From Acidobacteriota bacterium (GTDB lineage Bacteria; Acidobacteriota; Vicinamibacteria; Vicinamibacterales; Vicinamibacteraceae): DNA of 64,000 nt. The DNA lies in contig JADLFL010000032.1 of assembly GCA_020845575.1 (NCBI GenBank), positions 1 through 64,000 on the forward strand, given 5' to 3'. The notes beneath the pieces are model-generated. The model did no database searches and had not been told where the DNA came from. It saw only the letters and a program-made list of their open reading frames with translations. Both the position numbers and the translations under genes were made by a program. Shown here one piece after another: positions 2,758-41,904 of this stretch; positions within the stretch are counted from its first letter, which is position 1, and each line of letters begins with the position of its first letter.

Positions 2758-3645
2758 ATGGTACCCTCGACGACTGTGTCAGTCGCGGTGAACATCGACG
2801 GAACGTTGTACGGTGCGAAAGATGCGCGCATCTCCGTGTTCGATCACGGGTACCTGTTCGGCGAGGGCGTCTACGAGGTCGTGCGGACCTACGGCACGCG
2901 GATCTTCCTCTATCCGGAACACATGCGCCGGCTGCGCGCGTCCGCCGATCGCATCGCCCTCACCTGCCCCGTCGACGATGAGGTGATGCTCGGGCGGATC
3001 CGGGAGACCCTCGCCGCGGCGGCGCTCGATGGTGATGCCTATGTGCGCATCCTGCTGACGCGCGGCGTCGGAGAGATCGTGTACGACCCCTCGGCATGCC
3101 CGTCGCCGTCGGTGGTGGTGATCGTGAAGCCGCACGCCGACCCGCCGGCTTCGGCGCTCGCGGACGGTGTTCGCCTCGCCCTCGCCGACATCGTCCGTAA
3201 CCACCCGGGCAGCGTCGATCCCGCGATCAAGTCGAACAATCTGCTGAACAACGCGCTCGCGATGCAGCAGGCCTACCGCGAGGGCGCGTTCGAAGCGCTC
3301 ATGAAGAACCACCGCGGCGAGCTCTGCGAGTGCGCACAGTCGAACATCTTCTTCGTGCGCAACGGCGTGCTCCTCACGCCACCGGCGTCGGCGGGGCTGC
3401 TGGTGGGCATCACGCGTGCGTTCGTGCTGGATCTGGCCGCCGGGATCGGCGTCCCCGTCGAGGAGTGCGTGCTGCGCGAGGACGACCTCGCGTCGGTGGA
3501 CGAAGCCTTCATCACCAGCACCACGCGCGAGATCGTGCCTGTCGTGACGATCGGCTCCCACACGATCGGCGGTGGACGCCCGGGCCCTGTCACGCAGTCC
3601 CTGATCGCCGCCTTCACGGCCGCGATCCCGAACCACCTCTCGTAA
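2758..3645 (+). CDS. PLP class-IV aminotransferase (branched-chain or D-amino-acid type)
   Basis: A 295-residue fold-type IV PLP enzyme of the IlvE/Dat/PabC group. Family signatures are an N-terminal DGTLYGAKDARISVFDHG region, FLYPEHMRRLRASADRI, and the PLP lysine in PAIKSNNLLNNALAMQQA. The C-terminal part carries the ECAQSNIFF and ITSTTREIVPV segments that contact cofactor and substrate. D-alanine transaminase, branched-chain transaminase and aminodeoxychorismate lyase cannot be told apart by eye. The start is uncertain: ATG 2758 is given, but GTG 2776 is in frame just before the conserved domain, and ATG 2758 lies six bases from the divergent nnr start with no visible ribosome binding site. 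Confidence 0.85.
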   Translation: MVPSTTVSVAVNIDGTLYGAKDARISVFDHGYLFGEGVYEVVRTYGTRIFLYPEHMRRLRASADRIALTCPVDDEVMLGRIRETLAAAALDGDAYVRILLTRGVGEIVYDPSACPSPSVVVIVKPHADPPASALADGVRLALADIVRNHPGSVDPAIKSNNLLNNALAMQQAYREGAFEALMKNHRGELCECAQSNIFFVRNGVLLTPPASAGLLVGITRAFVLDLAAGIGVPVEECVLREDDLASVDEAFITSTTREIVPVVTIGSHTIGGGRPGPVTQSLIAAFTAAIPNHLS

Positions 3646-3657
3646 TCGGATTGCCGT

Positions 3658-3678
3658 CCGCCGGATAGAATCCGGCGG
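3658..3678. terminator. hairpin between convergent genes
   Basis: A perfect 9-bp inverted repeat, CCGCCGGAT then a 3-base AGA loop then ATCCGGCGG, sits between the convergent ends of the aminotransferase gene and gcvP. There is no obvious T-run, so it is best read as a bidirectional transcription-ending hairpin. Confidence 0.5.
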
Positions 3679-3698
3679 CTGCGCCACGTTTGGCGTGT

Positions 3699-6583
<2,885 letters not shown>

Positions 6584-28409: not shown

Positions 28410-30392
28410 CTACGGCTTCGGCGGCGGCTGGTACCGATCGTCACGGTACAACGGCGCGATGCGGATGCGCGCGCCGAGAAAGCGACTGTCGCGCACGCCC
28501 TCCGCGAACAATGGCACGAACCCTTCGCTCGCGGCGATCGAGATCGCGTACACGCGGTTCAACGGCTGCCCCGGAACGGCCTTGTACGGGAAGCCGCCGG
28601 GCATCGGCACGCGGACGGTCTCGCTGTTGTTCGCGCCTGGCGTCACGTGCACGCGCGCGGCACCCGTGTCGATCGTGACGACGGCCGGCGCGGCGCCTGT
28701 CGCCACTTCGATGTCGAGCGCCGTCAGCGCCAGCGACGTGAACGCGCCGTCGGCGTGTGGACGCGCAGGCGCCCGGAGGATCAGATCGGCACGCGACTCG
28801 CCTCGCACCCAGAACCACTCACCTTCGCGGCCGTACGCGTTGTCGTCGAGGAAGTAGGCCCACACCGCCGGATCGCCCGCGAGCGTTTGCTTGGCCCGCG
28901 ACGGCGTCACGTTGATCGGCATGTCGTTCACGAGCGAGAGCTCGATGGGCAGCCAGCGGAAAAGGCCGTACTTGGCGTGTGTCTCGGGTCTGAACGACGA
29001 GTAGAACGGATTGGCGATGAGCTGCGCCGTGAAGAGACCGCCCACAGCGGCTGCCACCACGGCCGTGCGGACGGTGATCGCGGCGGGCACGAGGAACGCG
29101 AAGAGCGCGTAGTAGCCGAGGAAGTACCTGTTGCCGATGGGGCCGCCGCCGCCCGAATACGTGAACGGCATGTAGATCAGGATCGCCACGGACGCGACGG
29201 CGAGCGTGCCGACGAGCAGCCACTGGAACGGTTCGCGGCGCTGTCGTCCTGCAACGAGGAACAGCACGAGCGTCAGGACGCCCGGGAAGAAATACGGCAC
29301 GAGTCCCGTGTGCCGCCCCAGGAAGAAGTACACGATGTTGTGTCGCAACACCGTGGTCAGTGCGTCCGTATTGAAGATGACCTCTGTCAGCAGGCCATCT
29401 GTCGCGCGCTTCTCACCCGTCGTGTCGAACGTCAGGTCAGGCGACTGGAACGGGAACCGGCCGTAGAACGTCGAGCGATCGGGACCGCCGCCCTGATAGT
29501 TCATGTCGCCGCTGCTGATGCCGTTGGCGAGGAACAACCCGCCCGTGGCAACGAGGAACGCGACGCAGATCCCCGCGACGCGCCACCACTGCCGGCGCCA
29601 CAACGCGAGCAGCAGCAGCGGTGCGGCCGCAAAGACGTTCAGGGGCTTGGAGAACGTCGCGACGCCGAGCAGTACGCAGGCGACGATGTCCGACCACGGG
29701 CTCCGCACGAACGCGCCCCAGCGATCGAGCCACGTGCCTGTCTGCGCCGCCGCTGGCGCCACCTCCTTGTACGCCCACAGGAAGAGCCCGAGCAGCACGA
29801 ACGACAGGTTGAACAACTCCGGCGTGAGCCAGACGAAGTACACGGGCGCGGCCGACGCGAACAGGAACACGACGGCGTATCCCAGCGCCGCGGACGCCGT
29901 GGCGCGTGCGCGCACGAACGCGTACACGGCACCGAAGCACGCCGTGAGGAGGAGCGCGTGCAGCACGAGGAAGCCGTTGGTGCCGACGAGCATGATGAAC
30001 GGCGCCGCGGCGAGCGGATAGATGAACGACTTGCCGTAGTAGAGCCTGTCGGCGCGCGGGTCTGTGCCCTTCACCCACTTGACGAACGGCGGGCGTCCCT
30101 GGAACTCGATGGTGACGCTGCGCCCGCGCTTGAGGAAGATGCCTTCGGGCCCGCTCGGGAACTCGCGCCACACGCGCACGAGGTCCTTGCGCTGGAACTG
30201 CATGTCCCGGTCGGCGGCGATGCTGTGGCCCAGGCTGTAGTAGGTCGACTCGTCGCTCTGGAAGCCGAACGCGACGACGGGGAATCGCACAGACAGCGCA
30301 AACCCGAGCAGGAGCACGCCGAGCACGATCGTGGCGACGGCTCCCGGCTCGTTCCACACGCGCCCGAGCCGCGCCGCCCCGGGCACGTTCAC
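28410..30392 (-). CDS. multi-spanning membrane protein, GT-C glycosyltransferase-like
   Basis: A 660-residue inner-membrane protein with about ten to eleven hydrophobic segments in its first two thirds, from VATIVLGVLLLGFALSV onward. The first loop (FGFQSDESTYYSLGHSIAAD) has the acidic pair and aromatic context of GT-C enzymes that use polyprenyl-phosphate sugars. The last ~170 residues are soluble and beta-rich, probably periplasmic. It overlaps the GT4 gene by four bases, which supports a glycan role. The exact sugar and acceptor are unknown. Confidence 0.7.
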   Translation of the reverse strand: MNVPGAARLGRVWNEPGAVATIVLGVLLLGFALSVRFPVVAFGFQSDESTYYSLGHSIAADRDMQFQRKDLVRVWREFPSGPEGIFLKRGRSVTIEFQGRPPFVKWVKGTDPRADRLYYGKSFIYPLAAAPFIMLVGTNGFLVLHALLLTACFGAVYAFVRARATASAALGYAVVFLFASAAPVYFVWLTPELFNLSFVLLGLFLWAYKEVAPAAAQTGTWLDRWGAFVRSPWSDIVACVLLGVATFSKPLNVFAAAPLLLLALWRRQWWRVAGICVAFLVATGGLFLANGISSGDMNYQGGGPDRSTFYGRFPFQSPDLTFDTTGEKRATDGLLTEVIFNTDALTTVLRHNIVYFFLGRHTGLVPYFFPGVLTLVLFLVAGRQRREPFQWLLVGTLAVASVAILIYMPFTYSGGGGPIGNRYFLGYYALFAFLVPAAITVRTAVVAAAVGGLFTAQLIANPFYSSFRPETHAKYGLFRWLPIELSLVNDMPINVTPSRAKQTLAGDPAVWAYFLDDNAYGREGEWFWVRGESRADLILRAPARPHADGAFTSLALTALDIEVATGAAPAVVTIDTGAARVHVTPGANNSETVRVPMPGGFPYKAVPGQPLNRVYAISIAASEGFVPLFAEGVRDSRFLGARIRIAPLYRDDRYQPPPKP

Positions 30393-31588
30393 GCCTTCAC
30401 CCCATCATCCAGGAACGACAGATCCTCGTGCAGGAGACCCTGTCGCTTCGTGGGCTTCGACACGCGCGCCATCAGGTCATAGAGGCGCTCCATCTTCCGC
30501 ACGTACGCGTCGATGTCGTAGCGACGGCTCGTGCGCTGCGCCTCGGCGCCGAGCGCGGCACGGCGTACGGGATCGCGTTCGAGCGCCACCACCGCGTCGG
30601 CGATGTCGCGCGCGCGCTCCTTCGGCACGACCACCGCGTCGACGCCGTCGCGCAGGATCTCGCACAACCCGTCGGCATCCGTCGACACGATCGGCTTGCC
30701 CATCGCGAGCGCTTCGAACGAGGTCAACGGCGTGCCTTCCCACAGCGAGGGAAAGACCACGAGATCGAACGCCGAGAGCACGCGCGCCACGTCGCGCTGG
30801 AAGCCGAGGAAGTGCACGCGATCGGCCACGCCGAGCGCCCGCGCCTGCGCCTCGAGCTCACCGTGCAGTTCGCCCTCGCCGGCAAGGTAAATCTGCGCCG
30901 ATGGAATCTGCTCGACGATCGGACCGACGGCGTCGATGAGGTACTTGTTGCCCTTCGCGGGCATCAGGCGCGTCACGGTACCGACGGCGAACGTCCCCGG
31001 CGTGATCCCGAGTGCCTCACGCGCGGCGGCGATCTCCTGCGCGCCGCGCGGACGCCCGAACTCCTCGAGCGGCGCGCCGAGATACACCACGCGCGTCTTC
31101 TCCGCCGGCATCTTCCGTGCGCGAATCGTGAACTCCGCCGTCGACTTCGACACGGCGATCGCGAGGTCGGTGTAGGGCGCGAGCAGCGAATCGGCAACCT
31201 GCTGGAACCAGGGTGTCGTCGTGTGGTTGGCGTGCTCGTGCAGCAACGCCGCCGTGCCGCGCATTGCTGCCGCGAGACGTCCGAAGGTCGTCGCGCCGTA
31301 GCCGTGCAGGTGCAGGACCTGCGTCCCCTTGCGGTCCATCACCTTGAGGAGCGCGGTGAGCGTGGCGGGATCGAACTTGCCCTTGTGCAGGTACGTGACG
31401 TCGACGCCGAACTGCTCCAGCGTGTCTTCGGAGGTGTCCTTCTGCCTGAGGCTCACGAGCGACACGTCGAAGCGTGCGGGATCGAAACGCGGCAGCGTCC
31501 ACGCGAACAGGCGCTTGACGCCGTGCATGCGCGACCCGGCCCATCCCAGGTGATCGCAGACGTGCAGGACGGAAATCTTCTGGCTCAC
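30389..31588 (-). CDS. GT4-family glycosyltransferase
   Basis: A 399-residue GT-B glycosyltransferase. The N-terminal half opens ISVLHVCDHLGWAGSRMHGV; the C-terminal half shows GTVTRLMPAKGNKYLIDAV, the AGEGELHGELEAQA region, and the nucleotide-sugar site FPSLWEGTPLTSFEALAMGK. It probably transfers a hexose to a lipid-linked glycan at the inner face of the membrane. Start GTG 31588 overlaps the stop of the SDR gene (GTGA). Donor and acceptor cannot be assigned. Confidence 0.9.
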   Translation of the reverse strand: MSQKISVLHVCDHLGWAGSRMHGVKRLFAWTLPRFDPARFDVSLVSLRQKDTSEDTLEQFGVDVTYLHKGKFDPATLTALLKVMDRKGTQVLHLHGYGATTFGRLAAAMRGTAALLHEHANHTTTPWFQQVADSLLAPYTDLAIAVSKSTAEFTIRARKMPAEKTRVVYLGAPLEEFGRPRGAQEIAAAREALGITPGTFAVGTVTRLMPAKGNKYLIDAVGPIVEQIPSAQIYLAGEGELHGELEAQARALGVADRVHFLGFQRDVARVLSAFDLVVFPSLWEGTPLTSFEALAMGKPIVSTDADGLCEILRDGVDAVVVPKERARDIADAVVALERDPVRRAALGAEAQRTSRRYDIDAYVRKMERLYDLMARVSKPTKRQGLLHEDLSFLDDGVKA

Positions 31589-32577
31589 AGCAATCCCTGC
31601 GCGCGATACCACGCGATGGTGCGCCTGATGCCCTCGGGCAACCCGACGACGGGGTTGAAACCCAGCTCGGTGCGCGCACGCGTGATGTCGAAGGCGCGGC
31701 TCTTCGTGTAGAAGTCCACGCGCCGACGATACAGCGGTGGCTGGATGCGCAACGGCACGCAGACGGCTTCGCAGGCGGCACCCGCGAGCCAGAACGGCCA
31801 CACGGGCAGGTGCACCGGCAGCGGCGTGACCTTCAGTTCCGTTGCGATGAGATCGACGAGTTCGTTGAGCGTGGTGTAGCGCGGCCCACCGAGGATGTAG
31901 GTACGTCCGGCCGCGGCAGGTACCTCGCCGCACAGCCGGAACCCCTCGCACAGATCGTCGATGAACGTGAGGTGATAGAACACCTCGCCCGATCCCAGCA
32001 CCGGGAAGCGGCGCCGCGAGATGCCCCGGAACATCTTGAGGAAGCGCATGTCGCCCGGACCGTAGATGCCGATCGGTCTCGCGATGACGACCTCGATGCC
32101 GCCCTTCACGCCTTCCGCGCGCGCGAGGCGTTCGCCTTCGAGCTTGGTGTCCTGGTACACGTCGCCGGGATTGAACGGTGCGTCCTCGTTGGCGGGCGGA
32201 TTGGCGACGTGTCCATGGACGCCGCCGGTGCTGCAGTGCACCACACGTGTGGCACCGCCCGCTCGCGCGCCGTCGATCACGTGCTGCACGCCCTGCACGT
32301 TGATGGCTCTGTACGCGCTGTCTGGCTGTCCGGCTTCGCGATACGTCGCGGCGATGTGATAGACGATGTCGGTGCCCGCGCATGCGGCGGCGACAGCCCT
32401 CGCATCAGTCAGATCGCCAGTGACGATCTCGACACCCGCGTCGCGCAACGCCGCGACGTCTGGCCGCGCCAGGCTCTTCTGCCGCACCAGACCACGCACC
32501 TGCACACCCCTGTGACGGAGGTGACGTGCGAGGTGGCCACCGGTGAAGCCGGTGGCGCCCGTGACGAGCACCGTCAC
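31585..32577 (-). CDS. NAD-dependent epimerase/dehydratase (extended SDR)
   Basis: A 330-residue extended SDR. TGATGFTGGHLARHL binds NAD, STGGVHG holds the catalytic serine region and VYQDTKLEGE the YxxxK pair. The C-terminal region is like dihydroflavonol-reductase or hopanoid-associated sugar epimerase (HpnA) type enzymes rather than a classic GalE. It lies between two GT4 genes, with four-base overlaps at both ends, so it most likely prepares or modifies a sugar for the same glycan. Confidence 0.87.
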   Translation of the reverse strand: MTVLVTGATGFTGGHLARHLRHRGVQVRGLVRQKSLARPDVAALRDAGVEIVTGDLTDARAVAAACAGTDIVYHIAATYREAGQPDSAYRAINVQGVQHVIDGARAGGATRVVHCSTGGVHGHVANPPANEDAPFNPGDVYQDTKLEGERLARAEGVKGGIEVVIARPIGIYGPGDMRFLKMFRGISRRRFPVLGSGEVFYHLTFIDDLCEGFRLCGEVPAAAGRTYILGGPRYTTLNELVDLIATELKVTPLPVHLPVWPFWLAGAACEAVCVPLRIQPPLYRRRVDFYTKSRAFDITRARTELGFNPVVGLPEGIRRTIAWYRAQGLL

Positions 32578-33827
32578 CGTCCGTCCTGCCCTCCCGAGGC
32601 GGCGGCACCTGCCACGGGCAACACGCGGTGACGCATCGACGCCATCAACATCTCGTAGGCGCGTCGCGTACGCGTGAGATACGACTGCCGGCTGTACTGA
32701 TCGTCGGCGAGCCGACGGGCGCCATCGACCACACGCCCGGCGAGCGCGGGCTCGACAATCGCCCGCGCGAGGCCATCGGCCAGTGCGTCAGGCGTGGGCT
32801 CGACGAGCACGGCGGAATCAGGCGAGAGCACCTGGGTGTGCGTCCGCAGGTTCGTGGCGACGATCGGGCGGGCCGATCGGAGGTACGAATAGATCTTCAG
32901 GGGCGTGTTCGTCCCCGAGATCCGCGGAGACACGAGCACGTCGCACGCGTCGACCAGGTGCGGTACCTCCACGGGCGGCCGCTGTCCCGTGAACACGAGT
33001 GGCGCGCCGCGTTCGCGCGCACGCGCGGTCATCCCGGCCACCTGTTCGGGCGCGCCGCCTGCGACAAGGACGGCCACGTCGGGCACGCGTGCCTTCAACG
33101 CGACGCTGGCGTCGAGCAGCAGATCGAGTCCCTGGTACTGCTCGAAGGTGCCCGTGTAGAGCACGACGGGCTGATCCGGCGTGAGCCCCCACGCGGCGCG
33201 CACCGCCGCGCGGCCGGGGCCCGGCGTCGGATCGACGTCGCCGCCCATCACGTTCTCGATGAGGACCGCGCGGTCGCCCACGCCCATCTCGTGCACGGCG
33301 TCCTGCAGTTCCTGGCAGATCGTGATCACGACCTGCGACCCACGCACCATGTAGTCCTCGGCGCGCTGGAAGCCCCAGCGCAGCACGCGCGACCGCGAGT
33401 ACTTGAAGTTGCCGAGTTGCTGCGGGAGGCTCGAGTGCATGTCGTACAGGTGCGGAATCCCGAGGCGTCTGCCGAGCCACACGCCCACCACGCCCATCTC
33501 TTCATGGGAGTGGATAGCGTCGTAACGGGTGCGGCCGAGGAAGGCAACCCGCAGGATCGTGAGGACCAGACACGCGTCGAGCACGAGCTTGGTGACCGAC
33601 GGGCCGATCGGCACGGTCGTCACCAACGGTGGGCGCCAGCTCCTGAAAATCCGGAGGCGTGGGAGTTCCACGTCCCTGCCGATCGGATAGGTCACCAGAT
33701 CGACGGCATGGCCGTCCTCGACGAGGGCCTTGATGCGGTGATACTCGCTGAATGGCGTACCGCGGGGCTCGAAGAACGGCTCCGGCGCGAGCATCAGGAT
33801 CCTGAGCGGCGTGGCTGGGGAGGTCAC
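32574..33827 (-). CDS. GT4-family glycosyltransferase, first gene of the glycan operon
   Basis: A 417-residue GT4 enzyme. It opens RILMLAPEPFFEPRGTPFSE, a pattern common in this family, and has VVLYTGTFEQYQGLDLLLDA and SPRISGTNTPLKIYSYL, the latter replacing the usual EGxP nucleotide-sugar loop. Start GTG 33827 is preferred over an in-frame ATG at 33986, because the extra 53 residues are not protein-like and a -10 element (TATACT) falls inside them. It begins the operon that runs through to dapF. Confidence 0.87.
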   Translation of the reverse strand: MTSPATPLRILMLAPEPFFEPRGTPFSEYHRIKALVEDGHAVDLVTYPIGRDVELPRLRIFRSWRPPLVTTVPIGPSVTKLVLDACLVLTILRVAFLGRTRYDAIHSHEEMGVVGVWLGRRLGIPHLYDMHSSLPQQLGNFKYSRSRVLRWGFQRAEDYMVRGSQVVITICQELQDAVHEMGVGDRAVLIENVMGGDVDPTPGPGRAAVRAAWGLTPDQPVVLYTGTFEQYQGLDLLLDASVALKARVPDVAVLVAGGAPEQVAGMTARARERGAPLVFTGQRPPVEVPHLVDACDVLVSPRISGTNTPLKIYSYLRSARPIVATNLRTHTQVLSPDSAVLVEPTPDALADGLARAIVEPALAGRVVDGARRLADDQYSRQSYLTRTRRAYEMLMASMRHRVLPVAGAAASGGQDGR

Positions 33828-33894
33828 GATACGGGGATTGGGCTGGCGGGTGATGCCCTCACTCGGAACGGGCAGCCGCGCCGCAAAGCTCTCA

Positions 33895-33900
33895 AGTATA
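33895..33900 (-). promoter_or_regulatory. -10 element of the glycan operon
   Basis: TATACT on the minus strand would start transcription near 33888, giving a leader of about 60 bases before GTG 33827. The -35 region is weak. It supports the shorter start for the GT4 gene. Confidence 0.35.
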
Positions 33901-34024
33901 GCCCACGGCACCACCGCCACGAGGGCACGGGCCGGAGTGCGCAGGCGAGTTTGCCCGCTCCTGAGTCGCATGGTACCGTCACACACCGTCCGACCGCCGT
34001 GGGCGCGGCCGGCGCCACCTCACC

Positions 34025-35023
34025 ATGTCTCCCCTGTCCGGTCGCGTCAAACGCGCGTCCTCGTTCGCCCTCAAGCTCAGCATCAGTGTTGGGCTCCTGG
34101 CCATGCTGTTTCGTCAGACGGACATGAGCGCCGTGCTGGCCCGGCTCCGCCAGGTGGAGCCGGCGTGGGTCGGGCTGGCGCTGCTGGTGCACACCGCCCT
34201 GCTCATCGTGAGTGGATGGCGATGGCGGCGGCTGCTGGTCACCCAGGACGTCCACGCCTCGACGTGGCAGCTCACCGTATCCTGCCTGGTCGCCAACTTC
34301 TTCAACAACTTCCTGCCGAGCAACATCGGCGGCGACGTCGTGCGCGTGGCGGACACGGCGGGCCTGACCGGATCGCGCACGGTGGCCACGGCTGTCGTCC
34401 TGCTCGATCGTGCGCTCGGCTTCATCGCGCTCGTCGCCGTCGCTGCCTGCGGCTCACTGCTGCTCCGGCACGCGCTGCCAGGGACCGGCTACCTCTGGGT
34501 GCTGTTGGTCCTCGGGGCCGTCGGTGCGGCGGTCGTGGTATCGCGTCCGGCACTGGTGCCGCGACTGCTCCGCCCCTTGACCCGCGTACGGGAAGAGTGG
34601 GTCACCGAACGCCTCGGACGCATCGAGGACATGCTCGGACGCGTCGGGAGCGACAGGGGCCGGCTGCTCCAGGCGTTTGCCGGCGCGGTGGTCGTCCAGG
34701 TGCTGGTCGTCCTGTTCTACGTCTGCGTGGCGCGGGGCCTGCACGTCGATCTGCCGCTCCGCGACGCGCTCGTCATCGTGCCCGTGAGCCTGGTCATCCA
34801 GCTCGCGCCCGTCTCGATCAACGGATTCGGCGTGCGCGAAGCCGTCTTCTCCTACCTGTTCAAGCGGCTCGGCCACCCCGTGGACGCCGGCCTCGCGCTA
34901 TCGATCGCCGGGGCCGCCCTCCTCATCCTCACCTCGCTCCCCGGCGGCCTCGTGTTCCTGCTGCGCAAGGAGGGCCTGATGGTCGCGGCCCGGTCGTCCG
35001 ATATGAGCAAGAGGGAGGTGTAG
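34025..35023 (+). CDS. UPF0104 / lysylphosphatidylglycerol synthase-like membrane protein
   Basis: A 332-residue inner-membrane protein with about eight helices of the lysylphosphatidylglycerol synthetase transmembrane family (UPF0104). The hallmark NNFLPSNIGGDVVRV and the second re-entrant motif APVSINGFGVREAVF are both present. In MprF this domain flips charged lipids; stand-alone members are thought to transport or transfer lipid-linked molecules. It is divergent from the glycan operon and a second, distant copy lies at 39733. The lipid is unknown. Confidence 0.87.
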   Translation: MSPLSGRVKRASSFALKLSISVGLLAMLFRQTDMSAVLARLRQVEPAWVGLALLVHTALLIVSGWRWRRLLVTQDVHASTWQLTVSCLVANFFNNFLPSNIGGDVVRVADTAGLTGSRTVATAVVLLDRALGFIALVAVAACGSLLLRHALPGTGYLWVLLVLGAVGAAVVVSRPALVPRLLRPLTRVREEWVTERLGRIEDMLGRVGSDRGRLLQAFAGAVVVQVLVVLFYVCVARGLHVDLPLRDALVIVPVSLVIQLAPVSINGFGVREAVFSYLFKRLGHPVDAGLALSIAGAALLILTSLPGGLVFLLRKEGLMVAARSSDMSKREV

Positions 35024-35073: not shown

Positions 35074-36348
35074 ATGCACACCATCCGGTACCAGACGCTC
35101 GCGACGCTGGCCTTCTGTACCCTGACCGTCGCGGGCTGTGAATCGAACAAGAGCCGCAATCCCCTGAGCCCCACCGTCGCGGGGCCCATTGCCGGCGTCA
35201 CCATCACGGCGCCCAAGACGCTCGAACCCGTCAACGGGCAGGCGATCACCTCGGGCAACCCCGTGATCCTGCTCATCGAGAACGCCGCGACCACCGGTGA
35301 ACGTCCGATCTGGCTCCAGGTCGAGATCGCCACCGACACGGCGTTCCAGAACAAGGTCCACACCGGCGACAAGGTCTCGCCCGGATCCGGCGGACGCACG
35401 ACGTATCAGGTCCCCATCGCGCTGCCGGCCGGCGGCGCCCGCTACTACTGGCGCGCCCGGGCTCTCGATGGCGCCAATACCGGCGAATACTCTGCCGCGT
35501 CCAGTTTCGTCATCCAGGACCCCGTCGTGATCGGCATCCCGTCGCCCGCGGGTCCGACGGGCGGCACGGTGGTGACGTCCAACGCCCCGGATCTCACGGT
35601 GGCCAATGGCGTGGCGACAGGTCCGCTCGGCGGCCCTGTGGTCTATCGTTTCGAGGTCGCCACCGACGCCAACTTCGCCAACATGGTCGGTGTCCTCGCC
35701 GTGCAGCGCAGCGGCGGGTCCACCACGACGGTCCAGCCGACGGGCCTGCAGTACAACACCACCTACTACTGGCGTGTGAACGCCACCGATGGCGTCCTGA
35801 CGTCGCCGTACTCCCCGACGGCGAGCTTCAAGACGCCCGCGTCGCCGGCGCCGACACCGTCGCCCAATCCCACCAATCCCACGACGCCGACGACACCGAC
35901 GACGCCCACGACGCCGACCAATCCCGCGCCGGCGCCACCGAGCGGCGGCGCGCGCACGCCCAACCCCGGTCCGGGCCAGCGACTGCCGCTGCCCGACATG
36001 TCGTGGGTGGTCGAAGACGTGGCGCGGCAGTACCCGCAGGCTCTGCGCAACTCCTGCCAGGATCACGGGGGCTCCTGGGAGTTCATGGATCGCGTGGTCG
36101 ACAGGCTGCGCCAGTACGACACCCGCTGGGGCTACAACGGCAAGCGCGGCAACGCCAGCGACCCGTCGCACGACGTGATCGACTACAACTGGGGATCCGA
36201 TCGCGACGAGGGGACGACCAACGTCTACATCATCGACATCATCGGGGGGCACTGCGGATCGACGCCGTCGCCGGCCTGGATCGATCAGACGGGTGTCACC
36301 GCCAGTTCCGGCACCATCGGCCGCTGGACGGGCCGCGGGCGTTTCTGA
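35074..36348 (+). CDS. lipoprotein with FN3-like repeats and a conserved C-terminal domain (copy A)
   Basis: A 424-residue lipoprotein: signal sequence with lipobox LTVAGC, then two fibronectin-like beta domains recognisable from YYWRARALDGANTGEYSAAS and TYYWRVNATDGVLTS, a Pro/Thr linker (about 270-290) and a C-terminal domain (294-424). That last domain is shared without gaps with the lipoprotein at 37345: about 82 of 131 residues are identical, including NSCQDHGGSWEFMD, RWGYNGKRGN, VYIIDI, HCG, AWIDQTG and GRWTGRGRF. I do not know its function. A GAGG sequence precedes the ATG. Confidence 0.85.
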   Translation: MHTIRYQTLATLAFCTLTVAGCESNKSRNPLSPTVAGPIAGVTITAPKTLEPVNGQAITSGNPVILLIENAATTGERPIWLQVEIATDTAFQNKVHTGDKVSPGSGGRTTYQVPIALPAGGARYYWRARALDGANTGEYSAASSFVIQDPVVIGIPSPAGPTGGTVVTSNAPDLTVANGVATGPLGGPVVYRFEVATDANFANMVGVLAVQRSGGSTTTVQPTGLQYNTTYYWRVNATDGVLTSPYSPTASFKTPASPAPTPSPNPTNPTTPTTPTTPTTPTNPAPAPPSGGARTPNPGPGQRLPLPDMSWVVEDVARQYPQALRNSCQDHGGSWEFMDRVVDRLRQYDTRWGYNGKRGNASDPSHDVIDYNWGSDRDEGTTNVYIIDIIGGHCGSTPSPAWIDQTGVTASSGTIGRWTGRGRF

Positions 36349-36390
36349 GTCCCTCATCCCTGCAACCGGGGCGGCGCCCGTCCGCCTCGG

Positions 36391-36419
36391 TTGACTTCCT
36401 TCTCGCCCTATCCAACAAT
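36391..36419 (+). promoter_or_regulatory. possible promoter upstream of the beta-barrel gene
   Basis: TTGACT (36391-36396), a 17-base spacer and AACAAT (36414-36419), with the start codon about 128 bases on. A moderate match only. Confidence 0.35.
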
Positions 36420-36547
36420 CGTTCGTCCGAATTCCCGGCGGACACGCAATCCCGGTGCGGTCGCCGTGCGCCCGCACCACACGTCAACCACGTCCACGAC
36501 GACAACGATCCGACGGGGCTCGGAGCGGCTGTTCGACCGTTTCCTCT

Positions 36548-37318
36548 ATGAATTCACGTACTTTGTTGGTCCTGGGGCTGCTGCTCACGCCGGCGCTTGC
36601 CGCGGCACAGTCCACTCCCTACGAACAGCGCGGCTTCGTGCAGATCGGTGCCGGAGCCCAGAGCGGCTCGCACGACGTCGTCAGCACGTCGACGTTCACC
36701 ATCTACGACGAGCAGGGCACGGTGGCCGGCGCGCAGACGTACGGCGGCGGCACCATCCTGAACATCGGCGCGGGCGCGCGGGTGTGGAAGAACCTGGTGC
36801 TGGCGCTGAACTACACGCGCAACTCGGACACCATGGATACGGCGGTGGTGGCGCGCGTGCCGCATCCGTTGTTCCTCAACCGGCTGCGTGAAGCGCCGAT
36901 GCCCGTGAGCGGCCTGAAGCACGAAGAGCAGGCCTATCACGTGAGCCTGAACTGGATGATCCCCATCGGGAAGGACCTCACGCTCGGCGTGGGCGCCGGG
37001 CCGTCGTTCGTGGGCGTGTCTCACGAGTTCGCCAGTTCCGCGCGGGTGCAGGAGACGGGCACCGCGCCCGACTTCGCGACCGTGATCGTGCAGGACGTGA
37101 CGTTCACGCGCGGTGAGAAGACGGGCAAGACGATCAACGTCGGTGCGGACCTCACCTACAACCTGCCGTTCGAGCTCGGTCAGGCGGGCCGCCTGGGCGC
37201 GACCCTCGGCTTCAGGTATGCCGGCGGCACCGTGAACCTGCCCACGGGCTCGTCGGGTGACGTGGACGTCAAGTACGGCGGCACCCAGTTCTGGGGCGGC
37301 CTCCGCGTCTCCTTCTGA
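36548..37318 (+). CDS. outer-membrane beta-barrel protein
   Basis: A 256-residue exported protein: signal peptide MNSRTLLVLGLLLTPALAAA, then alternating polar/hydrophobic strands with many glycines and aromatics (FVQIGAGAQSGSHD, GAGARVWKNLVLALNYTR, FGWGLRVSF-like ending GGLRVSF). The C-terminal phenylalanine is the usual outer-membrane insertion signal. It lies between the two related lipoproteins, which suggests a common envelope complex. No specific porin family is recognised. Start ATG 36548 is fixed by the signal peptide. Confidence 0.82.
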   Translation: MNSRTLLVLGLLLTPALAAAQSTPYEQRGFVQIGAGAQSGSHDVVSTSTFTIYDEQGTVAGAQTYGGGTILNIGAGARVWKNLVLALNYTRNSDTMDTAVVARVPHPLFLNRLREAPMPVSGLKHEEQAYHVSLNWMIPIGKDLTLGVGAGPSFVGVSHEFASSARVQETGTAPDFATVIVQDVTFTRGEKTGKTINVGADLTYNLPFELGQAGRLGATLGFRYAGGTVNLPTGSSGDVDVKYGGTQFWGGLRVSF

Positions 37319-37344
37319 TCGCGTTGCCACGAGGATCCACGACC

Positions 37345-38226
37345 ATGAAGCATCTCTTCTCCACCGGTCTCGTCTCGCTGCTCGCGCTCAGCGCCGCCTG
37401 CAGCAACAGCTCCAACCCCATGTCGCCATCGGCGACGGGCATCGGCTCCGTATCGGCCGTGCCCGAGGGCACGCCGACGCTCAAAGCCAACACGCCGAGC
37501 ACGCCTGAGCCCGCCTCGGGTGCCACCACCGAACTCGGCCCCAGCAACACCATCCCCGTGACGCTGTCGGTGACGACCGCCACCGCGACGCACGCCAACA
37601 CCGTGACGCTCGGTCACCGCTTCCAGTTGTTCGAGGGCACCACGCTGATCGCGGAACCGCTGGTCCCGGCCGGCAGTGGCCGCACGAGCTGGCAGGTGAC
37701 GGCGCAGCTCAAGTACGACGCGACGTACACGTGGCGCGCGCGCGCGGAACTGGCCGACGCCTATGGGGCGTGGTCACCGACGTGGACGTTCAAGACACCC
37801 GCGGCGCCTGTCTCGGGTGCGTTCCGCACGCCCGATCCGGCGCCCGGGACGCGCCTGCCGCTCCCCAACCGCATAGGTGTGGTCGACGCGGCGTTCAGGG
37901 CACGCCCCGACCTGGTCAGGCGTTCCTGCCAGGAGCACGGCGGCACGTGGGAGTTCATGGACTACCTGGTCGACGAGCTCCGCAAGGAGGACAACCGCTG
38001 GGGCTACAACGGCAAGCGCGGCAACGTGAACGACCCGTCGATGGACGTGGTCGACTACCACTGGGGCGCGGGTCCGAGCGACAACAGCACGCAGGTCTAC
38101 ATCATCGACATCATGTTCCAGCACTGCGGCAACTCGCCGTCGGCGGCATGGATCGATCAGACGGGCATCACGGCCGAGCAGCGCAGCATCGGTCGCTGGA
38201 CCGGCCGCGGCCGCTTCACCAACTAG
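37345..38226 (+). CDS. lipoprotein with the conserved C-terminal domain (copy B)
   Basis: A 293-residue lipoprotein with lipobox LSAACS near residue 19, one FN3-like domain (TYTWRARAELADAYGAW), and the C-terminal domain at 161-293 aligned without gaps to copy A. Conserved points are the two cysteines (SCQ and HCG), the HGGTWEFMD and NGKRGN blocks and the GRWTGRGRF end. The cysteines may form a disulfide in the periplasm. It lies 26 bases after the barrel gene. Function unknown; likely a partner or receptor at the outer membrane. Confidence 0.85.
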   Translation: MKHLFSTGLVSLLALSAACSNSSNPMSPSATGIGSVSAVPEGTPTLKANTPSTPEPASGATTELGPSNTIPVTLSVTTATATHANTVTLGHRFQLFEGTTLIAEPLVPAGSGRTSWQVTAQLKYDATYTWRARAELADAYGAWSPTWTFKTPAAPVSGAFRTPDPAPGTRLPLPNRIGVVDAAFRARPDLVRRSCQEHGGTWEFMDYLVDELRKEDNRWGYNGKRGNVNDPSMDVVDYHWGAGPSDNSTQVYIIDIMFQHCGNSPSAAWIDQTGITAEQRSIGRWTGRGRFTN

Positions 38227-38289: not shown

Positions 38290-38805
38290 TCATCGACGAG
38301 GCCCCCGGGGACGAACTGGCTCCGGACGCTCGACGATGACGATCGAGCGCGTGCTGAACGTCAGCCGCCTGTCGTGACGCCAGTCGCGCAACACGTGCCT
38401 GAACCTCGCCAGGCGCGCGCGATGCGTCGGATCGAGGGATTCGCCTTCCAGGCGGTCGATGAGGGCCAGTTCGAGCGTCGCGATGGTGGTGTCTGGGGCG
38501 AAGGCCAGGAACGCCCGGCCTTGTCCGAGTGACACCAGTTTCACGTCAGGCAGGTCGTCGAACGCATCTTCGCGAACGACGATCAGCGACTGACCGTGGC
38601 CGATGGGGAGCAAGTCCACGTCAGGCGGCTCCCCGCTGCCGCCCGCCTCAGCCTCGTCTCTGCCCCGCAGCCTGTCCACGAGCTTCACGATCGCCCACCC
38701 GACGTCCGGATCGGTCTGTTGCAGGAATTCCACGGCGTCCTGCGGCAACGTCAACGCCACCAGCGTCGACGGCCTGCCGAACTTGGGCGGTCGTCCTCGG
38801 GCCAT
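38290..38805 (-). CDS. hypothetical protein, N-terminal DNA-binding-like segment
   Basis: A 171-residue protein I do not recognise with certainty. It begins MARGRPPKFGRPSTLVALTL, an AT-hook-like RGRP motif followed by a ribbon-helix-helix-like stretch, and continues PDVGWAIVKLVDRL and a beta-rich C-terminal part (LVSLGQGRAFLAFAP). It may be a small transcription factor, but that is a guess. ATG 38859 is an alternative start adding 18 residues. It is convergent with the copy B lipoprotein and divergent from the methyltransferase at 38979. Confidence 0.55.
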   Translation of the reverse strand: MARGRPPKFGRPSTLVALTLPQDAVEFLQQTDPDVGWAIVKLVDRLRGRDEAEAGGSGEPPDVDLLPIGHGQSLIVVREDAFDDLPDVKLVSLGQGRAFLAFAPDTTIATLELALIDRLEGESLDPTHRARLARFRHVLRDWRHDRRLTFSTRSIVIVERPEPVRPRGPRR

Positions 38806-38920
38806 CGGCCAATTGGACGCGAGGCATTTGCTCAGATCAATGATGATTTTTCGAAGCAATTCATCCGGTGCCGCGAGGACCGGCCCGGAGCGTCGGCTTC
38901 ACCCGTGAGCCGGATGTAGA

Positions 38921-38978: not shown

Positions 38979-39707
38979 GTGGCCGAGGACACGTTCTACA
39001 AGTCGTTTTCAGAGAAACAGCTCACCGGCTTCGGCGCCGCACGCCGCAGCCGGATCGAGCGCACGCGCCTCGGCCTGCTCCAGCAGTCCATCCAGCCGCC
39101 GGGCCGCTTCGTCGAAGTCGGACCCGGACGCGGCACGCTGGCCGAACTGGCCGTCGCGGCGGGCTGGGACTACACGGCCATCGAGCCCAGCGACATCCTG
39201 ATCGATGTGCTGACGCAGAAGGGCCTGAAGGTGATCAAGGCCTTCACGCCGCCGATCCCGGGCGACGGCGACTCGCTCGACGTGCTGTATGCCGACCAGG
39301 TGATGGAGCACATGCCGGGTATCGATGCGGCGCGCGCCTTCACGTCCGATGCCCTACGCCTCCTTCGTCCCGGCGGCGTCTTCTTCGTCGTCGTGCCGGA
39401 TTATCTGAAGGAACGGACGTTCTTCTGGGACGTCGACTACACGCACAACTTCGTGACCACCGAGCGGCGGATGCGGCAGCTGTTCAACGATGGCGGTTTT
39501 CACGTGGAGCGCGTGGTGCGCAGCATCGGCGTGGCAACGGGGCTGCGGCGTGACGCGCTGGCCGCGGCCGCCGTCCTCGCCAATCTCCCGGGCCTGAACA
39601 CGTTCTCGCGATGGACGGGCACCGAAGACACTCTCTTCAAGGTGCGCAAGAACCTGTTCGAGACGCTGACCTTCGTCGCGCGCAAGCCCACGACCGGCCG
39701 GAACTGA
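38979..39707 (+). CDS. class I SAM-dependent methyltransferase
   Basis: A 242-residue Rossmann-fold methyltransferase. The SAM site is FVEVGPGRGTLAELAV, followed by the acidic ribose-binding AIEPSDI and by DVLYADQVMEHMPG and LRLLRPGGVFFVVVPDY. Such enzymes near glycan genes often methylate sugars or lipid carriers; the substrate is unknown. GTG 38979 fits the -10 element at 38965. It lies 25 bases before the UPF0104 protein gene, which suggests a shared transcript. Confidence 0.87.
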   Translation: MAEDTFYKSFSEKQLTGFGAARRSRIERTRLGLLQQSIQPPGRFVEVGPGRGTLAELAVAAGWDYTAIEPSDILIDVLTQKGLKVIKAFTPPIPGDGDSLDVLYADQVMEHMPGIDAARAFTSDALRLLRPGGVFFVVVPDYLKERTFFWDVDYTHNFVTTERRMRQLFNDGGFHVERVVRSIGVATGLRRDALAAAAVLANLPGLNTFSRWTGTEDTLFKVRKNLFETLTFVARKPTTGRN

Positions 39708-39732: not shown

Positions 39733-40683
39733 ATGCGACCACTGCCGCATCTGATCGGCTGGCTCCGCTCGCTCTGGGTGCGGGCCGCCCTGACGGTGGC
39801 GATCCTGGTCTATCTGGTGCGCCAGGTGGACGCCGGCGATGCGATGCGGGCCATCCTGCACGCCGATCCGCTGGCGCTCGCCGTGGTCGGCGGGCTCGTG
39901 CTGCTCGATCGTGCCGTCATGATCTGGCGCTGGGTCCTGCTCCTGCGCGCCAGCGGCACGTCGATCGACACGGCGACGGCGTCACGCATCTTCCTCGTCA
40001 GTTCGTTCGTGGGGAGTTTCCTGCCCGCGGGTGTCGGTGGCGACGCCGCGCGTGCCTACGCGCTCGGACAACGGACGTCGCAGCGCGGTGCGGCGGTGGC
40101 ATCTGTCGCCGTCGACCGCATCCTCGGCGTGGTGGCCATCGCGCTGATGGGTGCGATCGGCGTGGCGTTCTACATGAGCCGGCACGCCGACCCGCAGATT
40201 CGTGTGGCCGCCATCACCAGCGCCATCGCGGTGCTGGTGGGGTCGGTGGCGGCCGTGTGGGCCGACCGCTGGCTGCGCTGGCTGCCGCGCACCTGGCACG
40301 ACTGGACACCTGTCCGCCTGCCCTTGCGTATCGCCGACGCGATGGCGGCATACCGCAGGACGCCACGCGCGCTGGTTCAGGTGTTCGCGCTGTCTGTGCT
40401 GGTGCAACTGCTCCGGATTCTCCAGGCGTACGGGCTCGGCCTCGGTCTCGGGCTGACGGTTCCGTTCGCGTACTACCTGGTGTTCATGCCCATCGGCCTG
40501 CTGATGCTGCTCCTGCCCATCTCGATCAGCGGGTTCGGCCTGCCGCAGGGCGTGATCATGTGGCTCCTCCAACCCGTGGGCGTCCCCCGCGAGTTGTCGC
40601 TGGCTCTGGCAACACTGATCGTGCTGTCGGGCCTGTTCGGCAACCTGCCCGGTGCCTGGCTGTACCTGAAACGGGCGACCTAG
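39733..40683 (+). CDS. UPF0104 / lysylphosphatidylglycerol synthase-like membrane protein (second copy)
   Basis: A 316-residue membrane protein of the same family as the one at 34025. The hallmark reads GSFLPAGVGGDAARAYALGQ and the second motif LPISISGFGLPQGVIMW. About eight membrane helices. The two copies are clearly diverged, so they probably handle different lipids. Its neighbours, a methyltransferase upstream and a radical SAM protein downstream, suggest export or transfer of a modified lipid-linked product; this is inference. Confidence 0.85.
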   Translation: MRPLPHLIGWLRSLWVRAALTVAILVYLVRQVDAGDAMRAILHADPLALAVVGGLVLLDRAVMIWRWVLLLRASGTSIDTATASRIFLVSSFVGSFLPAGVGGDAARAYALGQRTSQRGAAVASVAVDRILGVVAIALMGAIGVAFYMSRHADPQIRVAAITSAIAVLVGSVAAVWADRWLRWLPRTWHDWTPVRLPLRIADAMAAYRRTPRALVQVFALSVLVQLLRILQAYGLGLGLGLTVPFAYYLVFMPIGLLMLLLPISISGFGLPQGVIMWLLQPVGVPRELSLALATLIVLSGLFGNLPGAWLYLKRAT

Positions 40684-40755: not shown

Positions 40756-41904
40756 ATGGCGCAAGTATACGCGGCCAAGTACCTCGCCAAAGCGGCGCTC
40801 TCTGCTCCCCGGGATTTCGTCAACAGCTACATCGGGCGCGTCAAGCCGCTCCACCCGACGGTCCTGATCTTCCATGTCACCTTCGTGTGCGACGCCCGCT
40901 GCAACATGTGCAGCAACTGGACGCGTGGCAACCGCAAGGAGGACATGACCCTCGAGCAGATCGAGCAGGTCTTCGACTCCCCGCTCTGGAAACACATCGA
41001 GAACGCCAGCATCTCGGGCGGCGAGCCCACCACCCGCAACGATCTGGTCGAGATCGTCCGGGTGCTCATCGACAAGCTGCCGCGCCTGCGCAAGCTGACG
41101 CTGAACACGACGGGCCTCACGCCGCACCGCGGCATCCCGATGCTCACGAAGATCGTGCAGATGTGCCACGAGCGCGGCGTGATCTTCAGCACCCGTGTGT
41201 CGGTCGACGGCGTCGGCGACATGCACAACGAGGTGCGTCGCGTGAAGCGCGGCTTCGACAAGGCCGAGCAGACGATCGCCGCCATGAAGGAGTTGCAGAA
41301 GACCTACCCCTTCAACTTCGGCATCTCCACGACCATCTTCTCGATGAACCTGGACGACGCCGAGAACATCCTGGCGTGGGCGCGCCGCGAGAAGCTGGAC
41401 ATCGTGTTCAACATGGTCCGCTTCACCGAAGCGATGCTCGGCAACGCCGATCTCGCCAAGGACATCAAGCCGGTGAGCGAAGAGGAACAGCGCATGCGCC
41501 AGTTCTTCCTCGACCGCGTGCGCCATGACCCGCTGCTCGACGGGCAGAACTACATCTACATGCACTACGCGGACATGATCGCCAACGGCTATCACCGCAC
41601 CGCGCCGTGCCCGTTCCAGACGCAGGGCATCATGCTGAACCCCGATGGCGGCATGTTCTTCTGCGAGAACAGCAACGTCGTCGGCAACGCCGTGACCGAG
41701 GATCCGGAGGCCATCTACTTCAAGCAGGCCTCGCAGGAGCACCGGAACTACATTCGCGACGAGAAGTGCCCGGCCTGCCTCAGTCCCTGCCAGATGAACG
41801 TGGCGGCGATCAAGCAGGTGGTGCCGTACGCGAAGTTCCTGGTACGCGCCAGCGCCGAGAAGCGCCGCGCCGCGCGGCGTCCGATCGCCGCCGCGGCGTT
41901 GTGA
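40756..41904 (+). CDS. radical SAM protein with cysteine-rich C-terminal region
   Basis: A 382-residue radical SAM enzyme. CDARCNMC (C45, C49, C52) binds the catalytic 4Fe-4S cluster, ASISGGEPTTRNDL is the GGE motif that holds SAM, and a cysteine-rich C-terminal block (CPFQ, CENSN, CPACLSPCQ) suggests a SPASM-type extra cluster. Such enzymes modify peptides, lipids or cofactors; hopanoid HpnH-like and peptide-modifying types cannot be separated by eye. It sits between a lipid flippase-like protein and a secreted hydrolase. No precursor peptide gene is evident nearby. Confidence 0.85.
   Translation: MAQVYAAKYLAKAALSAPRDFVNSYIGRVKPLHPTVLIFHVTFVCDARCNMCSNWTRGNRKEDMTLEQIEQVFDSPLWKHIENASISGGEPTTRNDLVEIVRVLIDKLPRLRKLTLNTTGLTPHRGIPMLTKIVQMCHERGVIFSTRVSVDGVGDMHNEVRRVKRGFDKAEQTIAAMKELQKTYPFNFGISTTIFSMNLDDAENILAWARREKLDIVFNMVRFTEAMLGNADLAKDIKPVSEEEQRMRQFFLDRVRHDPLLDGQNYIYMHYADMIANGYHRTAPCPFQTQGIMLNPDGGMFFCENSNVVGNAVTEDPEAIYFKQASQEHRNYIRDEKCPACLSPCQMNVAAIKQVVPYAKFLVRASAEKRRAARRPIAAAAL

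Follow-up and report, generated by a model that had tools for sequence, protein, structure and literature searches.

Two lipoprotein genes that end in the same domain, with an outer-membrane barrel gene between them, raise the question of what the shared domain does, and of whether the domain, the trio or a larger neighborhood is the unit that has been conserved. We examined one such arrangement in the window, the whole 64,000-nucleotide stretch of Vicinamibacterales DNA analyzed here. The reading we prefer, to which we give a probability of about 0.5, is that the two lipoproteins, lipA and lipB, are stalks anchored in the outer membrane that display an exchangeable C-terminal recognition tip.

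Both genes are open reading frames, and both proteins are bacterial lipoproteins, judging from signal peptides that end in a lipobox cysteine. lipA (positions 35074..36348, plus strand, 424 aa) carries the pattern LTVAGC, with the lipobox cysteine at residue 22, followed by a stalk of two FN3-like repeats (35137..35841, plus strand), a Pro/Thr-rich linker and a C-terminal domain of 131 residues, which we call T1 (copy A, 35953..36345, plus strand, with its SCQ and HCG cysteines). lipB (37345..38226, plus strand, 293 aa) has the lipobox LSAAC and a shorter FN3/Ig-like stalk ahead of its own T1 domain (copy B, 37825..38217, plus strand), after which two residues remain. A first-pass annotation of this DNA had counted about 82 of 131 identical, gap-free positions between the C-terminal domains of lipA and lipB, and had found the FN3-like parts upstream far less alike. 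Both observations held: exactly 82 of 131 residues are identical without gaps, where 2000 shuffles gave at most 20, as are 279 of 393 bases in the DNA (tblastn E 1.8e-56), and the stalks are only loosely alike by BLAST. In Pfam, the lipA stalk matches the FN3-like PhoD_N family weakly but significantly (PF16655, E 2e-9); likeness to this and to other Ig-like modules is confined to the stalk, the T1 domain being without a match. A third and more distant copy of T1 lies elsewhere in the window's genome, on contig C41. Convergent to lipB, on the minus strand at 38290-38859, the window also encodes a 189-residue protein with no family match, and some genomes encode relatives of it close to the locus (L035, L036, L094, L115).

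T1 is new to the libraries searched. The first-pass annotation had called the domain undescribed and had proposed a profile search of the 131 residues and structure prediction of the domain alone, and both analyses agreed with that description. Neither the domain nor its family had a match above cut-off in Pfam, NCBIfam or PHROGs (the best sub-threshold profile scores, each from 1 of 20 members, were E 0.02 for Pfam and E 0.004 for a PHROG family without known function), and PDB sequences gave no match even at E 10. The predicted structure is confident (pLDDT 92, pTM 0.88), with three helices, then four strands, then a last helix, and a Foldseek search with this model found no match among PDB folds (best E 1.3, highest probability 0.07). 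The literature searched held no description of the T1 domain or of the locus.

The middle gene (36548..37318, plus strand, ATG at 36548, 256 aa) encodes a protein with a signal peptide that had been taken for an outer-membrane barrel from its sequence, and structure prediction bears this out: eight long strands close a barrel in the model (pLDDT 83), which matches OmpA/OprG/OmpW-type structures (E 6e-5, probability 1.00). The predicted fold is that of the 8-stranded OmpA/OprG/OmpW/NspA-type barrels, but the TM scores by query length are 0.38-0.49 and there is no Pfam match above cut-off; as far as sampled, the sequence family is found in these bacteria alone. We considered an exporter of lipoproteins of the Type XI secretion or Slam (DUF560) type. 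Slam-type exporters consist of a DUF560 barrel with a periplasmic N-terminal domain, and this candidate was rejected for a 256-residue protein with eight strands, no N-terminal domain and no Pfam match. Between lipA and the barrel gene lie a terminator-like hairpin of 12 pairs followed by a T-run (36363..36393, plus strand) and a promoter-like site (36391..36419, plus strand), both consensus matches only. The three genes therefore need not form one transcript, and lipA may be transcribed apart from the barrel gene and lipB, which are separated by a gap of 26 bases.

Comparison across the order indicates what has been conserved: the unit is the locus, with glycosyltransferases, an epimerase and flippase-like genes around lipA, the barrel and lipB, and not the domain. 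In the window, the conserved neighbors on the minus strand are a divergent GT4 glycosyltransferase (30389-31582), an HpnA-like sugar epimerase (31585-32577) and another GT4 glycosyltransferase (32574-33986). On the plus strand, a flippase-like LPG_synthase_TM membrane protein (34025..35023) stands directly upstream of lipA, and a methyltransferase (38979-39707), a second flippase-like protein (39733-40683) and a radical SAM protein (40756-41904) are encoded beyond lipB. The order glycosyltransferase-epimerase-glycosyltransferase / flippase-lipA-barrel-lipB-methyltransferase-flippase-radical SAM recurs across families, with the barrel gene mostly inverted; the earlier observation that the three central genes run in one direction applies to the window's own genus and fails elsewhere. 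Among 162 genomes of the order, the barrel family is present in 124, the lipA stalk, a conserved scaffold, in 87 and T1 in 49, so neither the stalk nor the barrel depends on T1.

These counts bear on the first-pass proposal of a surface complex made up of all three proteins. The barrel gene lies between two T1 genes in 15 genomes from several families (on the other strand outside the window's own genus), which speaks for the proposal. T1 is nevertheless rarer than the barrel, and in 9 of 18 loci fetched around barrels without a nearby T1, lipA and lipB stalks still flank the barrel, with other tips. The trio is also only partly linked: a barrel gene lies within 10 kb of a T1 gene in 32 of the 49 domain-bearing genomes, and in the remaining 17 none was found within 10 kb among the matches listed, some of these cases probably being due to short contigs. 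In any such complex, the stalks and the barrel would be the constant partners and T1 the exchangeable part. A physical complex of barrel and lipoproteins is plausible from this linkage. Spelled out, the first-pass view is of a constant outer-membrane complex in which the barrel holds or exports both lipoproteins and T1 is the exposed head; it is compatible with recognition tips on stalks, and the flanking of a predicted barrel by paired T1 genes or paired stalks would suit it. We nonetheless consider it a tentative possibility, since the barrel is much commoner than lipA and in some cases remote from every lipA and lipB gene, it varies in strand and distance, and linkage is not contact.

What changes at this locus is the tip. 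We fetched lipA from most of the genomes that carry it and sorted the tips; the 79 lipA stalks bear at least eight tip types, namely T1, a diverged form of it (T1b), T2, T3, T4, T5, T6, T7 and one singleton. On a tree of these stalks the tip changes at least 25 times (shuffled mean 48), a figure that is approximate because some branches of this quick tree are weak. On the tree, tips of one type group strongly together, which argues that tips are exchanged more slowly than in classic antigenic or phage-driven variation. Relatives whose lipA stalks are up to 78-80% identical bear unrelated tips at the same locus, and the change occurs even within one genus: the stalks of G290, with T1, and G363, with T2, share 78% identity at the protein level and 79% at the DNA level, the similarity stops at the linker, and the tips cannot be aligned. 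On lipB the tip is T1, T2 or a longer module that we call lectin-like from its look only, and the pairings of lipA and lipB tips include T1/T1, T2/T2, T1/T2, and T3 or T4 with the lectin-like module. Pfam gave no match, and PHROGs no convincing one, for any tip tested. One genome (G172; L115, about 3450-5860) has tandem lipA genes with alike stalks and different tips, one T1 and the other of a type absent elsewhere, a possible intermediate of tip exchange. Two of these modules are widespread and without a Pfam match: T5, a C-terminal module of about 150-170 aa (L139, L144, L147, L148, L150, L153-L155 and others), and the lectin-like module of lipB, of ~200 residues (L090, L093-L095, L102, L107, L108).

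Exchange of the tip as a unit is as expected if the target it recognizes varies with habitat, partner or phage. In our preferred reading, the lipid anchor would hold the lipA and lipB stalks in the outer membrane, and the stalks, presumably facing outward, would present the tip at the cell surface. Over evolution, as the stalk tree shows, the tip is swapped as a unit at the linker while the stalk, the barrel and the sugar- and lipid-modifying neighbors stay. The tip would bind a target, either the cell's own or foreign, with a glycan or another surface polymer as the likeliest ligand. Exchange of the tip would change specificity, and the barrel may act as partner or exit for these stalks.

Polymorphic toxins, too, join a constant N-terminal part to an exchangeable C-terminal domain, here of about 110-170 residues, and a constant lipoprotein carrier could in principle bear toxic domains used against neighbors. 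The layout found here fits this, but immunity-type genes are absent downstream of the tips, where the barrel, methyltransferase and flippase genes stay the same irrespective of tip type; in addition, the same tip type is often on both genes, and no toxin family was matched, making a toxin very improbable. A role in defense was likewise set aside, lipA, the barrel and lipB being without a PADLOC match.

The shared domain might instead reflect nothing beyond gene duplication in the window's lineage, leaving an ordinary pair of lipoproteins without special function. Within the genus, the domain tree sets lipA-type domains apart from lipB-type domains as distinct clades (SH-aLRT 96 and 100), so the pair is an older duplication kept in place. 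The pairing at the locus recurs in other families, however, the lipA and lipB tips of G343 and G418 are each other's nearest relatives, and both genes can share a different tip type, as with T2/T2 in G348, G113 and G196. Because the automatic lipA and lipB labels on this tree are noisy, we used it only for the within-genus clades and for G343 and G418. We consider simple duplication improbable as the full account.

The main rival to recognition tips on stalks is an enzyme, on account of the residue conservation within T1. D74 and D95, which lie on neighboring predicted strands, are invariant in all 53 copies compared, including copy A of the window; R53 is kept in 51, R58 in 52 and H100 in 48, and W59, N62, K64 and Y78 are also nearly constant. 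Of the 53 copies, 51 have both C35 and C101 and one diverged copy lacks both, which fits a disulfide between them. T1 could thus be a small secreted hydrolase or transferase with D74 and D95 in its active site together with R53, R58, K64 and H100, trimming or modifying a surface glycan made by the neighboring genes. This conservation fits catalysis as well as binding, the glycosyltransferases, epimerase and flippase-like genes adjoin, and a surface-degrading tip would fit the occurrence of T1 on a protein from a phage structural region (described below). Against these points, no known enzyme family or fold matches T1, H100 is lost in five copies, and the unrelated replacement tips at the same locus suit recognition at least as well; we regard catalysis as rather unlikely, and recognition as the better account. 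In a subset of T1 domains, on lipA and lipB tips such as L111, L129, L165, L037 and L038, NGKRGN is replaced by NC(K/R)RG.C; the two extra cysteines appear together in the copies read, which suggests a second disulfide.

Some of the tips appear to be related to one another. In 28 profile-profile comparisons, T1b belongs with T1 (probability 97.5) and T7 with T4 (95.7), kinship of T1 and T3 is probable (80.7, P 1.3e-5, one of the 28 comparisons), and the weaker scores for T3-T4 (38) and T1b-T4 (36) are hints of kinship; T2 and T5 had no match to other tips. The comparison was aimed at a single superfamily of tips, which T1, T1b, T3, T4 and T7 may form, with T2 and T6 as doubtful members. A spaced motif (K/R, G/N, then S.D.[IV], then D[IVLM]) occurs in 21/22 T1, 7/8 T2, 7/12 T3 and 10/11 T4 sequences, compared with 1/20 T5 and 0/291 stalk pieces; the pattern was written after the sequences had been read, and we treat it as a lead only.

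T1 also occurs once on phage-like DNA and resembles two phage protein models. On a phage-like IMG/VR contig (L042, IMGVR_UViG_3300043313_002018), T1 forms the C-terminus of a 231-aa protein (5695-6381) that sits among virion structural genes (phrog_399, phrog_30), near head and tail genes; this occurrence in a phage structural region comes from one contig. The gene directly follows that for a 1345-residue protein, and its neighbors are mostly without a PHROG match. Searches of 50,697 phage records and of plasmid collections with T1 gave no match. In these collections the L042 and L051 versions yielded chance-level matches only, and scanning viral sequences for relatives of the L051 version, of T3 or of T4 gave none. 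Among predicted viral structures in BFVD, A0A6J5QSJ9 matches the T1 fold clearly (E 1.5e-8, probability 1.00, TM 0.70, 118 columns, 25% identity) and A0A6J5MLQ7 weakly (E 0.06, probability 0.98). Both are uncultured Caudovirales phage proteins with no function assigned and, unlike lipA and lipB, are not known as lipoproteins; the likeness of fold is between models. It is conceivable, though we think it unlikely, that the locus encodes a new recognition apparatus of Acidobacteria, a constant lipoprotein-barrel scaffold within a glycan/lipid locus whose tips come from a stock of new folds that phage structural proteins also use. If so, host surface display and phage attachment would share one set of exchangeable modules.

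That a constant carrier can bear an exchangeable end-domain is already known in principle; tip exchange at this locus is absent from the literature searched. In Myxococcus TraA/TraB, a variable surface recognition head works with an outer-membrane barrel protein, and the variation in TraA lies within one domain, whereas here whole unrelated modules are exchanged; the likeness appears to be one of layout. TasL of Vibrio fischeri, a predicted outer-membrane lipoprotein with FN3-like repeats that promotes cell-cell contact, also resembles lipA and lipB in layout, but its gene is over 10 kb long and tied to a type VI secretion island, and no T1-type tip has been described for it (PMC9040878). T1 represents a domain family not described before, confidently modeled but without a solved relative. 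More important than T1 itself is the natural series, one surface lipoprotein scaffold bearing many different, mostly unannotated tips, with which one can ask what a large, mostly uncultured lineage recognizes on surfaces, and if phages that infect it make use of these modules too.

The window's genome has three copies of T1, all 7 genomes of its family are positive with one to six copies each, and the 49 positive genomes of the order fall in 21 of 86 genera, counts that missed copies or short contigs may affect. In a sample of the phylum, 10 of 11 T1-positive genomes belong to the same order. A GTDB match titled Acidimicrobiia (L009) is no evidence for spread to Actinobacteria, a possibility we rejected, because its protein is the same as one on a contig of a same-order genome (L052). 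T1 is the C-terminal part in all 54 copies examined, with a median of 1.5 residues after it, and the stalks ahead of it in complete bacterial proteins are of FN3, Ig, TIG or WYFAEG-repeat types; it also ends other secreted proteins of Ig/TIG type. The copy on contig C41 (64419-64787, G000; L003, L039) is a diverged T1 that follows WYFAEG-type repeats and a TIG-like segment in a large secreted protein. Relatives of this protein were seen elsewhere (L024, L025, L028-L030, L032, L033), and groups of two or three such genes lie close together in related genomes.
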